From Bifidobacterium lemurum (GTDB lineage Bacteria; Actinomycetota; Actinomycetes; Actinomycetales; Bifidobacteriaceae), in assembly GCF_014898175.1 (NCBI RefSeq), contig NZ_CP062948.1, positions 1,364,001 to 1,428,000 of the forward strand: DNA of 64,000 bases. Direction: 5' to 3'. Below, piece by piece: positions 52,190 through 55,430 of this stretch (positions are counted from its first letter, which is position 1; each line of letters begins with the position of its first letter). The notes under the pieces are model-generated. The model saw only the letters and a list, made by a program, of their open reading frames with translations, ran no database searches and was not told the DNA's origin. The position numbers and the translations under genes were made by a program.

Positions 52190-52293
52190 TTATCCCCAAG
52201 TTATGCACCAAGTTATCCCCATTGTGTGGATAACCTAGTGAATTATCCACACTCTTATCCCCATAATGTGGATAACTCACTTTTCTATCCACA
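52190..52293. other. cluster of DnaA boxes
   Basis: Within 104 bases I count one TTATCCACA (52243), two TGTGGATAA (52225, 52267), three TTATCCCCA (52190, 52213, 52255), TTATGCACC (52201) and TATCCACA (52286). The first three match the strict DnaA box and the others are near matches. dnaA and dnaN are not here, so this is not a standard oriC; a titration or activation site (datA or DARS type) is a better guess. Confidence 0.75.
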
Positions 52294-52345: not shown

Positions 52346-52430
52346 GTCCGCATACGGTCGTGCGGGCGCGATTATGACGTCAACGTCCGCATACGGTCGT
52401 GCGGGCGCGATTATGACGTCAACGTCCGCA
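52346..52430. repeat. 39-bp tandem repeat before the response regulator
   Basis: Two identical 39-base units (52346-52384 and 52385-52423) and the first seven bases of a third. Each contains GTCCGCATACGG, GTGCGGGCG and the palindrome TGACGTCA. It lies about 70 bases before the regulator gene and may be its own binding region. Confidence 0.8.
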
Positions 52431-52501
52431 TTTTTGCCATCCATCACCTCGTTTGATGCAGGAACTCGTATATTCGTAACCAGAGAGCAAAGGGGTTGCC
52501 T

Positions 52502-53374
52502 GTGTATACCTTGGCCGTTGTTGACGATGACCGGCTACAGCGCGAGGCGCTGGTCGATACGGTGAATCGTGTGGGTGCCGAGGTCCTCGGCCCGAACATG
52601 GACGTCCTCTCGTTTTCGGGGGTCGGCGAGCTGGAACGCCACCTCGCCGATCGTGCCTCCCGGCGGCTGGATATCGTGCTGATGGACATCGCGTTGCGCA
52701 ACGGGAGCGGCGGTGATGCGGGCCATACGACCCACTCAGGCGACATGGGCGGCTCGGGCGATCCCAATCGCGTGGGCGATATGGGCCGCATGGGCAATGT
52801 GAACGATGCGGGCGACGCGTGCGGCGGCTCTGTCCGCGTGGTCGGCGGCGACCTCGACGCCGCGGCCGGCATCGACGCGGTCCGCCGCCTCTTCCCACCC
52901 TCCTGCGGCACGCAGGTGATCTACGTGACCGGACATATCGAATACTGCACACGCGTCTACAACACCGACCATGTGAGCTTCCTGCTCAAACCCGTGCGCG
53001 AATCCGACCTGCGCGACGCGTTGGCGCGTGCCGCCGTCCGCCTGCGCGAGGAATCGGAACGTCCCATCGGCGTCCGCGTGGGCAACGCCGAATATTCGGT
53101 GACTCCTCGAGACATCATCTACGCGGAAAGCCGCGGCCGCATCTCGCGCATCCATACGGAACGCGGCGTCATCGAGTCGTATCTCAAATTGGACGAGCTC
53201 TCCGCGCGCCTCCCCTCGCGTTTCGTGCGCTGCCACAAAAGCTATCTGGTGAATCTGGCGTATGTGTGGCGCTTCCAATCCGCGCAGATGGAGCTGTCCA
53301 ACGGGGTGACGGTTCCGGTGAGCCAACGCAGGGCCGCGCAGGCGCGTGAGGCCTTCCTCTCCTATGTGAGATAG
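52502..53374 (+). CDS. LytTR response regulator with interrupted receiver
   Basis: Encodes 290 residues from GTG at 52502 (AAAGGGG seven bases before; TTG at 52496 is an alternative). The receiver has VVDDDRLQRE, the phosphate-accepting Asp62 in VLMDIAL, YVTGH with the switch Thr, and LLKPV with the conserved Lys. About 50 residues rich in Gly, Asp, Met and Asn (GDMGGSGDPNRVGDMGRMGN) are inserted between Asp62 and GIDAVRRLF. The LytTR DNA-binding domain (about 190-290; IIYAESRGRISRIHTERG, FVRCHKSYLVNL) follows. The paired sensor genes are directly downstream. Confidence 0.9.
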   Translation: MYTLAVVDDDRLQREALVDTVNRVGAEVLGPNMDVLSFSGVGELERHLADRASRRLDIVLMDIALRNGSGGDAGHTTHSGDMGGSGDPNRVGDMGRMGNVNDAGDACGGSVRVVGGDLDAAAGIDAVRRLFPPSCGTQVIYVTGHIEYCTRVYNTDHVSFLLKPVRESDLRDALARAAVRLREESERPIGVRVGNAEYSVTPRDIIYAESRGRISRIHTERGVIESYLKLDELSARLPSRFVRCHKSYLVNLAYVWRFQSAQMELSNGVTVPVSQRRAAQAREAFLSYVR

Positions 53375-53382
53375 GCGTCGCC

Positions 53383-54360
53383 ATGGGGCTGGTTTCGCTG
53401 TTGTTCGACCCACATACGACGGCATGGCTGCTGGCGGTCAGCGTGGTGTGCATCACGCAGTTCCACGCGCAGATCTGGTTGGTTCCGGTGCGGGTATCGT
53501 TCATGCCGGTGCAGTGCGCGCTGTTGACGGTGTTTCTTGCGCTCGACCCGACGGTGCTGTCCGCGTTGGCCTCCGCGCCGTTCGGTCGGTGGCCGTCGGC
53601 CGCGCGATTCCTGGTGATGCTGGTGCGGTATGCGCTGCTGCCCGCGCTGATGCTGGTGGTGGTGCCGTATCGTTGGTACCGCGTCGAGCCGCGGGTGCGC
53701 GGATTCACGATCGTGCGCAATCTGATCATCGTCGCGGTGAGCGCGCTGCTCACCTTCGGCGCGGTGCAGGCGAAAGCCCTGCTGTATGGGCCGGACGCGC
53801 CGCTGGCCGGCGGGGCCGACATCGTCGCCGTCGCGGTGATCGCCGCCGGCACGCTGATGCTGCTGGACACCCTGTTCGTCCAACGGGTGCGCGTGGCCAT
53901 ACTCGCTCGCGCCCAAAGCGCCGATCAGGACCACGACCCGTTCCTCATGTTCTCCGCCGTGCAGCTGGCGGTGCTGTGCTTCACGTTGATGATGGCCGTC
54001 ACCATATTCCGCGACGCCACGGCTTTCACCATCGCGGCGGATGTGTTGGCCCTCGTGTGTCTGGTGACGGATATGGCCGTCTCAGCTTCGATGTCGCGCG
54101 AGATGGAGGCCCGCGAGCATCAGGCACGCAACGCGTTGCTGGAGGAGCGTCTGGACGCGCAGCTGGAGGAGTACGCGGCCATCGCCCATCATGTGAAAGC
54201 CGCCGCCCAACGCCGTCATGACCTGCGCAACCAGCTCGGCGCGGTCGAGATATTGGCCCGTCGCGGGGATTTCGCGTCGGCCGCGCGGCATATGGACGCC
54301 CTGCGACGTGACTGGCTGGCCGAAGACGGCGCGCTTCGAGACGGCGAGGCCCACGGATGA
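53383..54360 (+). CDS. sensor half with phosphoacceptor His but no ATPase
   Basis: Encodes 325 residues. About six membrane helices (to about residue 225) lead into a coiled-coil helix and then RRHDLRNQLGAVEILARRGD, the phosphoacceptor motif of AgrC-type (HPK10) kinases with His279. The protein ends about 45 residues later, where the ATP-binding domain should begin. The next gene, overlapping by four bases, supplies an ATPase domain but lacks the histidine. Together they look like a kinase split over two chains, feeding the LytTR regulator upstream. Confidence 0.85.
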   Translation: MGLVSLLFDPHTTAWLLAVSVVCITQFHAQIWLVPVRVSFMPVQCALLTVFLALDPTVLSALASAPFGRWPSAARFLVMLVRYALLPALMLVVVPYRWYRVEPRVRGFTIVRNLIIVAVSALLTFGAVQAKALLYGPDAPLAGGADIVAVAVIAAGTLMLLDTLFVQRVRVAILARAQSADQDHDPFLMFSAVQLAVLCFTLMMAVTIFRDATAFTIAADVLALVCLVTDMAVSASMSREMEAREHQARNALLEERLDAQLEEYAAIAHHVKAAAQRRHDLRNQLGAVEILARRGDFASAARHMDALRRDWLAEDGALRDGEAHG

Positions 54361-55430
54361 GCATGATTGATATGGATGCGATCGGTGCCGGTGCGGCACC
54401 GTTCGTGCGGACGCTTTGCGGCATCGCGGCGGTGGCCTCGCTGGTGGCGCTGGGCGCGATGATGGTGCGTCTGGTCGCTCTGATGCGCGGATTCCATGTG
54501 AGGCGCGTGCTGGTGAACCTGCTGTTTCCGCTCAGCCAACTGGTGTTCATCGCGTTCAACATGGCGTTCGTATGGCTGCGTGTGGACGCCGTCACGCCGC
54601 TGCTGGTGCTGGCCGCGCTTGCCGTGGTCTGCGCGGCGGTGGATTACGTGCTGTTCCGCGACCTGTACCGCGCCGAGCAGGACGCGATGCTGCGCCGTCG
54701 CGCGGCGATGCTGCGCGCGCAGTTGCGGGCCCAACGGTCCCATACGTCCCGCGCCGCGCGGGAGATGGAGACGGCCCGCGCGCAGGACTCGCTGATCGCC
54801 GGGCGGCTGCGTGCGGTGAGCGACGCGGTGGAGAAGGGCGATGCCGATGCGGTGTCGGCGGCGGTCGCGCACACCGTCGGCGCGTTGCCCGCAGGCGCGT
54901 CCTATTGCGAGCATCCGGTGGCGGACGCGCTTTTGGCGTTGAAGGTCGCGCAGGCGGCCCGCGCGGGAATCGCCGTCGACCACCGGCTTGAGGTGCCGGA
55001 AAGTCTGCCGCTGACCAGCGTGGAGATCTGCGCGCTGTTCTCCAATATCATGGACAACGCGATCGCCGCCTGCTCGCGGCTGCCGGAGGATCAGCGCCAT
55101 ATCGCATTGCGCGCGCGGGTGGCCGCCGGCAATTTCGTGGTCCAGGAAACCAATCCCTGCGACCAGGCGCGCCCTTGCGGATCCCACACCCCCTCGCTTT
55201 CGTCGGAGCATGGTTGGGGATTGTCGATTCTACGCCGCATCGCGCAACGCTACGGCGGCAGCGCCGATTTCGGGCTGGTTGACGATCGTGCGGCGTCCGC
55301 CGCGGGCGAGGGCGGCGGCCTCGCCGTGCGCGGCGCATCCCGAGACGCGGCCCGACCCGGCGCGGACACGCCGTACCGTTGGCGCACGATGCTGATCATC
55401 CCGTTGGACGGGCGGTCCGGTCCGGTCTGA
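54357..55430 (+). CDS. sensor half with GHKL ATPase but no His
   Basis: Encodes 357 residues. Four hydrophobic segments (about 12-38, 50-70, 78-100, in part 100-108) precede a long helix. The position of the phosphoacceptor reads RAQDSLIAGRLRAV, with Gln143 where AgrC-type kinases have His. The ATPase is intact: EICALFSNIMDNAIAA (N box, about 223-240) and HGWGLSILRRIAQRYGG (G box, about 284-300). A glycine- and alanine-rich insertion lies near the end before the last strand. Start overlaps the preceding stop. It most likely phosphorylates the histidine of its partner in a heterodimer. Confidence 0.85.
   Translation: MSMIDMDAIGAGAAPFVRTLCGIAAVASLVALGAMMVRLVALMRGFHVRRVLVNLLFPLSQLVFIAFNMAFVWLRVDAVTPLLVLAALAVVCAAVDYVLFRDLYRAEQDAMLRRRAAMLRAQLRAQRSHTSRAAREMETARAQDSLIAGRLRAVSDAVEKGDADAVSAAVAHTVGALPAGASYCEHPVADALLALKVAQAARAGIAVDHRLEVPESLPLTSVEICALFSNIMDNAIAACSRLPEDQRHIALRARVAAGNFVVQETNPCDQARPCGSHTPSLSSEHGWGLSILRRIAQRYGGSADFGLVDDRAASAAGEGGGLAVRGASRDAARPGADTPYRWRTMLIIPLDGRSGPV

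Follow-up and report, generated by a model that had tools for sequence, protein, structure and literature searches.

Membrane sensor kinases are typically homodimers, and each chain has both of the activities that are needed. The closest precedent for a division of these activities like the one described here would appear to be the FasB/FasC/FasA system (FasBCA) of group A Streptococcus. According to the report on this system (PMC12675982), His246 of FasC is required and FasB supplies the required ATPase, and both the ATPase domain of FasC and the membrane part of FasB are dispensable. A pair consisting of FasB residues 216-448 (DHp and ATPase) and FasC residues 1-286 (TM and DHp) stays active. 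The same report describes a FasB-FasC heterodimer by two-hybrid analysis, with no self-interaction signal for either protein. Split CheA pairs are also known, and these include CheA3/CheA4 of Rhodobacter (PMC3591291) and Hik36/Hik43 of Synechocystis (PMC7656254). The first of the two papers also gives a SMART count in which 1556 of 42417 HisKA proteins are without an ATPase domain, part of them possibly being split kinases; this count refers to HisKA proteins and not to the family considered here.

The locus that we analyzed is in a stretch of 64,000 nucleotides (the window) from the single-contig genome, 2.97 Mb in size, of Bifidobacterium lemurum. Three genes follow each other on the + strand in the order LytTR regulator, gene A and gene B. 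The regulator gene (52502..53374 from a GTG start, with an alternative TTG start at 52496) has Pfam matches to LytTR (2.3e-20) and Response_reg (1.4e-07). Its phospho-acceptor is Asp62 if counted from the GTG codon, as a preliminary description of this DNA correctly had it, and Asp64 if counted from the TTG codon. Gene A (53383..54360, 325 aa) encodes a polytopic membrane protein with about 6-7 spans, judged by hydropathy only, and a His-bearing DHp hairpin. The predicted phospho-acceptor, His279 (codon 54217..54219), is within the motif RRHDLRNQLG, 46 residues from the end of the protein. The Pfam scan of gene A has no ATPase domain, and the scan of this A protein also has no match to the DHp entry SPOB_a. 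Gene B (54357..55430, 357 aa) encodes about 3 membrane spans, also by hydropathy only, a His-less pseudo-DHp and a complete GHKL ATPase (HATPase_c_5, 5.5e-12) with the N-box NIMDN at residue 230 (55044..55058) and the G2 box HGWGL at residue 285 (55209..55223). The two genes share 4 nt, ATGA (54357..54360), in which A stops and B starts. There is no NCBIfam match above the curated cut-off for the regulator, A or B.

The preliminary description had stated that A ends before any ATPase, that B has a GHKL ATPase and that the two genes overlap behind a LytTR regulator, and the coordinates, the Pfam results and the motifs agree with these statements. It had also placed Gln143 of B in the position of the histidine. 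B is indeed without a phospho-His, but a joint alignment with one-piece kinases puts Ser145 in the phospho-His column and Gln143 two residues upstream of it (codons of Gln143-Asp144-Ser145, 54783..54791). Neither Ser145 nor Gln143 is conserved among B proteins.

The surroundings of the three genes display some additional features. The regulator (52502-53374) has a low-complexity insertion of ~55 aa shortly after the phospho-acceptor Asp, and immediately upstream of its gene are two perfect copies of a 39-bp direct repeat (52346-52423), a possible regulatory site. Seven DnaA-box-like sites are clustered between a LacI-like gene and the regulator (52190-52293), and a DnaB-like helicase gene is downstream of gene B. 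Three of the sites match TTATCCACA exactly, and none of the seven has more than one mismatch to it. Here, we take TTATCCACA to be the DnaA-box consensus, and the names LacI-like and DnaB-like are likewise presumptive. Close pairs of exact DnaA boxes are found elsewhere in the genome, around 1.08-1.18 Mb. The same genome encodes a one-piece HPK10 kinase at about 2.62 Mb (L140, 3563-4870), which adjoins a LytTR-type regulator. This kinase has the motif HDLKN 84 residues before its N-box and so provides an internal control for the normal architecture.

Relatives of the two proteins were collected from Bifidobacterium and from Coriobacteriia. A B search of 396 Coriobacteriia genomes gave any match in 311 genomes, with up to five candidates scored per genome. 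The strong sample consists of all 68 places down to E 2.4e-37 among the matches listed. The comparison sample has 29 rows, namely 27 weaker places of the B search and two others, one from the window's own genome and one from G167; four of the 29 (L152, L154, L156 and L168) are B-type, a remnant or a fusion, and the other 25 are one-piece kinases. Altogether, 76 B-type loci were read: 66 that come from 67 strong places, the Gordonibacter fusion, four from Bifidobacterium, the four weaker ones just named and the window. With A as the query (E up to 1e-10), the same 396 genomes gave matches in 52, which belong to 22 of the 153 genera; in at least one of these genomes (G841), the match is to a one-piece kinase (L207). 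In the genus Bifidobacterium, the A alignment matches five of 112 genomes. When named genomes were scanned with the B alignment, 10 loci were obtained, two in Bifidobacterium and eight in Coriobacteriia (two in Olsenella, one in Thermophilibacter, two in Slackia, one each in Gordonibacter and Adlercreutzia and one in a Coriobacteriaceae bacterium). Searches of the protein database, with about 8000 candidates scored in each, gave two matches for the single A sequence and five for the single B sequence, the window's own counted in, and four for the A alignment. Among solved structures, the A alignment has no match and B finds six ATPase-bearing chains, with VanS and PhoQ at the top.

The preliminary description regarded A and B as complementary halves, and the same pattern is found in the relatives. 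Pfam lists SPOB_a for eight of 13 A proteins (the window's A is not among them) and for none of 15 B proteins, and HATPase_c_5 is present in none of the 13 A proteins and in all 15 B proteins. The best score of an ATPase profile on 80 A proteins was 6.1 bits, and none of them scored as an ATPase. An N-box-like motif is present in all 76 of the B and fusion proteins tested. The H-box region of the 80 A proteins has HD in 79 cases and HE in one (L168, RHELSN). Three of the 80 have RHDARA or RHDARS and not RHDxRN, and others have RHDxAN or RHDxGN; the RHDxAN H-boxes belong to one group of A proteins (L126-L134, L152, L206 and L208). In an alignment of 13 A proteins, 11 of which are only 19-31% identical to that of the window, H279, D280, R282 and N283 are invariant, and these are four of the nine invariant positions.

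In the joint alignment, all 25 one-piece kinases have HD or HE in the His column, and none of 73 B-type rows (67 split and six fused) does. A conserved alternative phospho-His in B, which the preliminary description had named as an observation that would speak against it, was looked for and is absent. A plain His is in this column in three of the 73 B rows (L109, L113 and L116), never as HD or HE. Other columns of B are rich in His. For example, a column in the linker has His in 46 and Asn in 24 of the 73 rows, and Asn is found there in 25 of the 29 comparison rows; two further columns have His in 18 and 22 of the 73 rows. One-piece kinases with a readable N-box have H[DE]xx[NH] 84-88 residues upstream of the N-box.

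Both genes are present on one contig of 28,543 bases in a close relative (P0002/P0004), where A is 83% and B is 77% identical to the window's proteins. The order regulator-A-B is also found in Bifidobacterium pullorum DSM 20433 (L003), with 29-35% identity for A, depending on the alignment, and 37% for B. Thus, the search for His-only and ATPase-only neighbors in bifidobacteria that the preliminary description proposed does find that the split is kept. More generally, it is present in relatives whose A and B proteins have 19-35% and 28-39% identity, respectively. The split is beyond chance because it is kept in distant relatives and across the 76 loci.

The arrangement of the genes differs among the 76 loci. 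The order is regulator-A-B in 35 loci, regulator-B-A in nine, regulator-fusion in five and fusion-regulator in one; B is alone in six loci, one locus was scored as regulator-B, and the remaining loci have more than one A gene, in various orders. On reading, the single regulator-B locus (L156) turned out to be another A+B fusion. Two of the lone-B loci (L101 and L112) have a truncated A tail at the start of the contig, with RHDQRN or RHDVRN. With these two tails and the L156 fusion added to the 69 loci found by the automated count, a His half adjoins or is fused to B in 72 of the 76 loci. Two other lone-B loci (L105 and L113) end at contig ends, and their genomes hold a regulator-A fragment that reaches the end of another contig (L202 and L204); this fits, but does not prove, contig breaks. 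That leaves L122, a lone B, and L154, a B remnant of 197 aa without A. Conversely, one A gene (L201) has no B neighbor within 8 kb. Of the 76 loci, 65 have a LytTR-type regulator, identified by profile match, in the gene cluster on the same strand. The 4-nt overlap is found at 34 of 52 A-to-B junctions and at seven of 16 B-to-A junctions.

A and B are fused into one reading frame at seven loci (L093, L099, L107, L120, L131, L135, which is the same as L008, and L156), and two of these fusions, L093 and L099, are near-identical. In each fusion, a further membrane block separates the His from the ATPase, and the B half has the His-less hairpin. The distance from the His to the N-box is 244-300 residues in the seven fusions versus 84-88 residues in one-piece kinases. 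None of the loci that were read has a one-frame homologue with just one membrane block. In the fusion from Gordonibacter (L135, 4998-6623; L008, 4944-6521), the A part has only about two spans and the B half has a second HD, in HDVRA, two residues off the His column. The HDVRA is perhaps a remnant of a lost H-box, and its position near the His column means that this B half may not be dead.

The region in which A and B can be aligned with one another comprises the last two membrane spans, the coil and the DHp, and the A-family profile finds the B family weakly and vice versa. When A and B rows were aligned to the two halves of a fusion, the A rows fell on the B half, which is evidence that A and B are homologous. 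An ATPase-only tree (101 rows, 148 columns, made by a quick method) has the 76 split or fused rows and the 25 one-piece rows on opposite sides of one branch with an SH-aLRT of 99, where the one-piece set consists of weaker matches of our own profiles and the split rows were sorted mainly by B-profile score, so that the rows are not a random sample. On this tree, the fusions need five state changes, and the well-supported branches force only one. The most likely origin of the pair is that a whole kinase was duplicated and that the two copies then lost complementary parts.

Complementary domains, conserved pairing, gene coupling, fusions and A/B homology can all be read directly from the genes. 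We consider it very probable on these grounds that A and B are obligate subunits of one HPK10-type (AgrC-like) kinase, in which B would phosphorylate the His of A and A would then phosphorylate the regulator. A would contribute the membrane sensor and the His-bearing DHp hairpin, and B would contribute a smaller membrane domain, a His-less DHp-like hairpin and the sole ATPase. The two would pair via their DHp-type helices, either as a heterodimer or as A2B2. The ATPase of B would phosphorylate His279 of A in trans across the mixed DHp bundle, and A would hand the phosphate on to the LytTR regulator, whose gene is immediately upstream, at Asp62/64. We infer the formation of the complex, the direction of phosphate flow, the stoichiometry and the signal. 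In functional terms, the strongest support for this mechanism is the published work on FasBCA described above (PMC12675982). Some observations speak against it, namely the missing Pfam DHp match of the window's A, the His in the His column of three B rows, the second HD of the Gordonibacter fusion, the variant H-boxes of some A proteins and the unpaired genes at L122, L154 and L201. Because relatives in other gut bacteria keep the split, A and B probably function only as a pair, and presumably only a heterodimer could phosphorylate the regulator, as the preliminary description had concluded; its overall interpretation is supported.

Other explanations should be weighed against this one. CheA3/CheA4 is a split pair that acts via a transient complex, according to PMC3591291, and if A and B resembled it, each would be a homodimer, the ATPase of B would meet the His of A transiently and A would be a substrate phosphotransferase. 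The DHp-like hairpin that B retains could homodimerize. However, the DHp-like hairpin of A is whole and of the same kind as those of one-piece kinases and of B, there is no free Hpt domain and, in the Fas report (PMC12675982), the two-hybrid signal was from the heterodimer and not from homodimers. An arrangement of the CheA3/CheA4 kind is therefore unlikely. It is even harder to believe that A and B act separately, with A being phosphorylated by another one-piece kinase (or only dephosphorylating the regulator) and B being a modulator. DHp domains can act as phosphatases, and at least one one-piece HPK10 kinase, the L140 protein mentioned above, is beside a LytTR-type regulator in this genome, but the near-universal pairing of A and B, their 4-nt overlaps and the A+B fusions oppose separate action and make it improbable.

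A further explanation would be that a frameshift, an assembly error or gene decay had split a normal kinase, given the 4-nt overlap of A and B and the commonness of one-piece HPK10 kinases. We have rejected this explanation and give it almost no credence. The genes are also split in P0002/P0004 and B. pullorum, at the identities given above, and in distant relatives. Furthermore, joining A and B would not produce a normal kinase because a membrane block and a DHp-like hairpin are already present in B itself. The preliminary description had cited homologues joined to an ATPase domain in one frame as a sign of an assembly error; none of the A-type genes in the 76 loci continues into an ATPase in the fashion of a normal kinase.

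The number of A genes varies between loci. They outnumber B in 14 of the 76 loci, with two to three A genes per B, and L086 has four A and two B genes; except for the lone-B loci, no locus among the 76 has more B than A. The mean identity of A pairs within a locus (n = 21, the pairs being non-independent since L086 supplies six and L126 three of them) is 32% in the sensor part and 62% in the 48-residue DHp. The corresponding values for A pairs between loci (892 of 900 random draws) are 26% and 34%. Seventeen of the 21 within-locus pairs are above the 95th percentile of the cross-locus residuals; in a first-pass comparison one pair (L076), with 18 aligned residues, went in the opposite direction. 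These values fit A subunits whose inputs diverge under the constraint of sharing one B and one regulator. A contribution from recent duplication, or from gene conversion of the DHp end, is conceivable.

One way to explain such loci is that B is a shared catalytic subunit, i.e., that one B and one LytTR regulator serve two to three interchangeable A sensors and that inputs are mixed by swapping the His half. The membrane sensors of A would then diversify while B and the regulator would hold the DHp domains of A alike. We propose this tentatively, with slightly more doubt than confidence. With the loci that have several A genes, combinatorial sensing can be tested directly.

The pair would also be of use in other ways. 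If A and B are a fixed natural two-subunit kinase, one activity can be knocked out cleanly per subunit, and with single-activity subunits, trans-phosphorylation, phosphatase control and sensor integration become testable without mixed mutants. The fusions would be covalently fixed A:B pairs for structure work.

The preliminary description suggested that the architecture was undescribed, and this can be accepted only in part. A heterodimer in which the His and the ATPase are split between the partners is already present in FasB/FasC, as PMC12675982 describes it; what distinguishes A and B from that account is the complete loss of a domain in both partners. We found no description of a split A/B kinase family in the literature searched, the coverage of which excluded most papers in subscription journals and all bioRxiv preprints.

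Compared to one-piece HPK10/AgrC-type kinases, the A/B pair has the polytopic sensor, the HDxRN-type H-box (in A only), HATPase_c_5 (in B only) and the LytTR regulator, but the His and the ATPase are on separate polypeptides. The split CheA pairs are similar in that the phospho-His and the ATPase are on two cooperating proteins. However, they are chemotaxis-type kinases with P1/Hpt domains, and their halves have neither a membrane sensor nor an HPK10-like DHp hairpin each; Pfam finds no CheA domains in A or B, only SPOB_a for A and HATPase_c_5/HATPase_c for B.

The Fas system resembles the A/B pair in having two kinase-like membrane proteins and a LytTR/ComE-type regulator in one operon, which for A/B is predicted from gene order. 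It differs in that FasC retains a dispensable ATPase and FasB has two histidines in its putative DHp, whereas the loss is complete in both A and B, and in that fusions and loci with more than one His subunit occur in the A/B family. The minimal Fas pair that was engineered (FasB 216-448 with FasC 1-286) has about the domain content of the natural A/B pair, except that B retains its membrane spans. In conclusion, these comparisons suggest that a division of labor of the FasB/FasC type reaches its end state in Actinomycetota.
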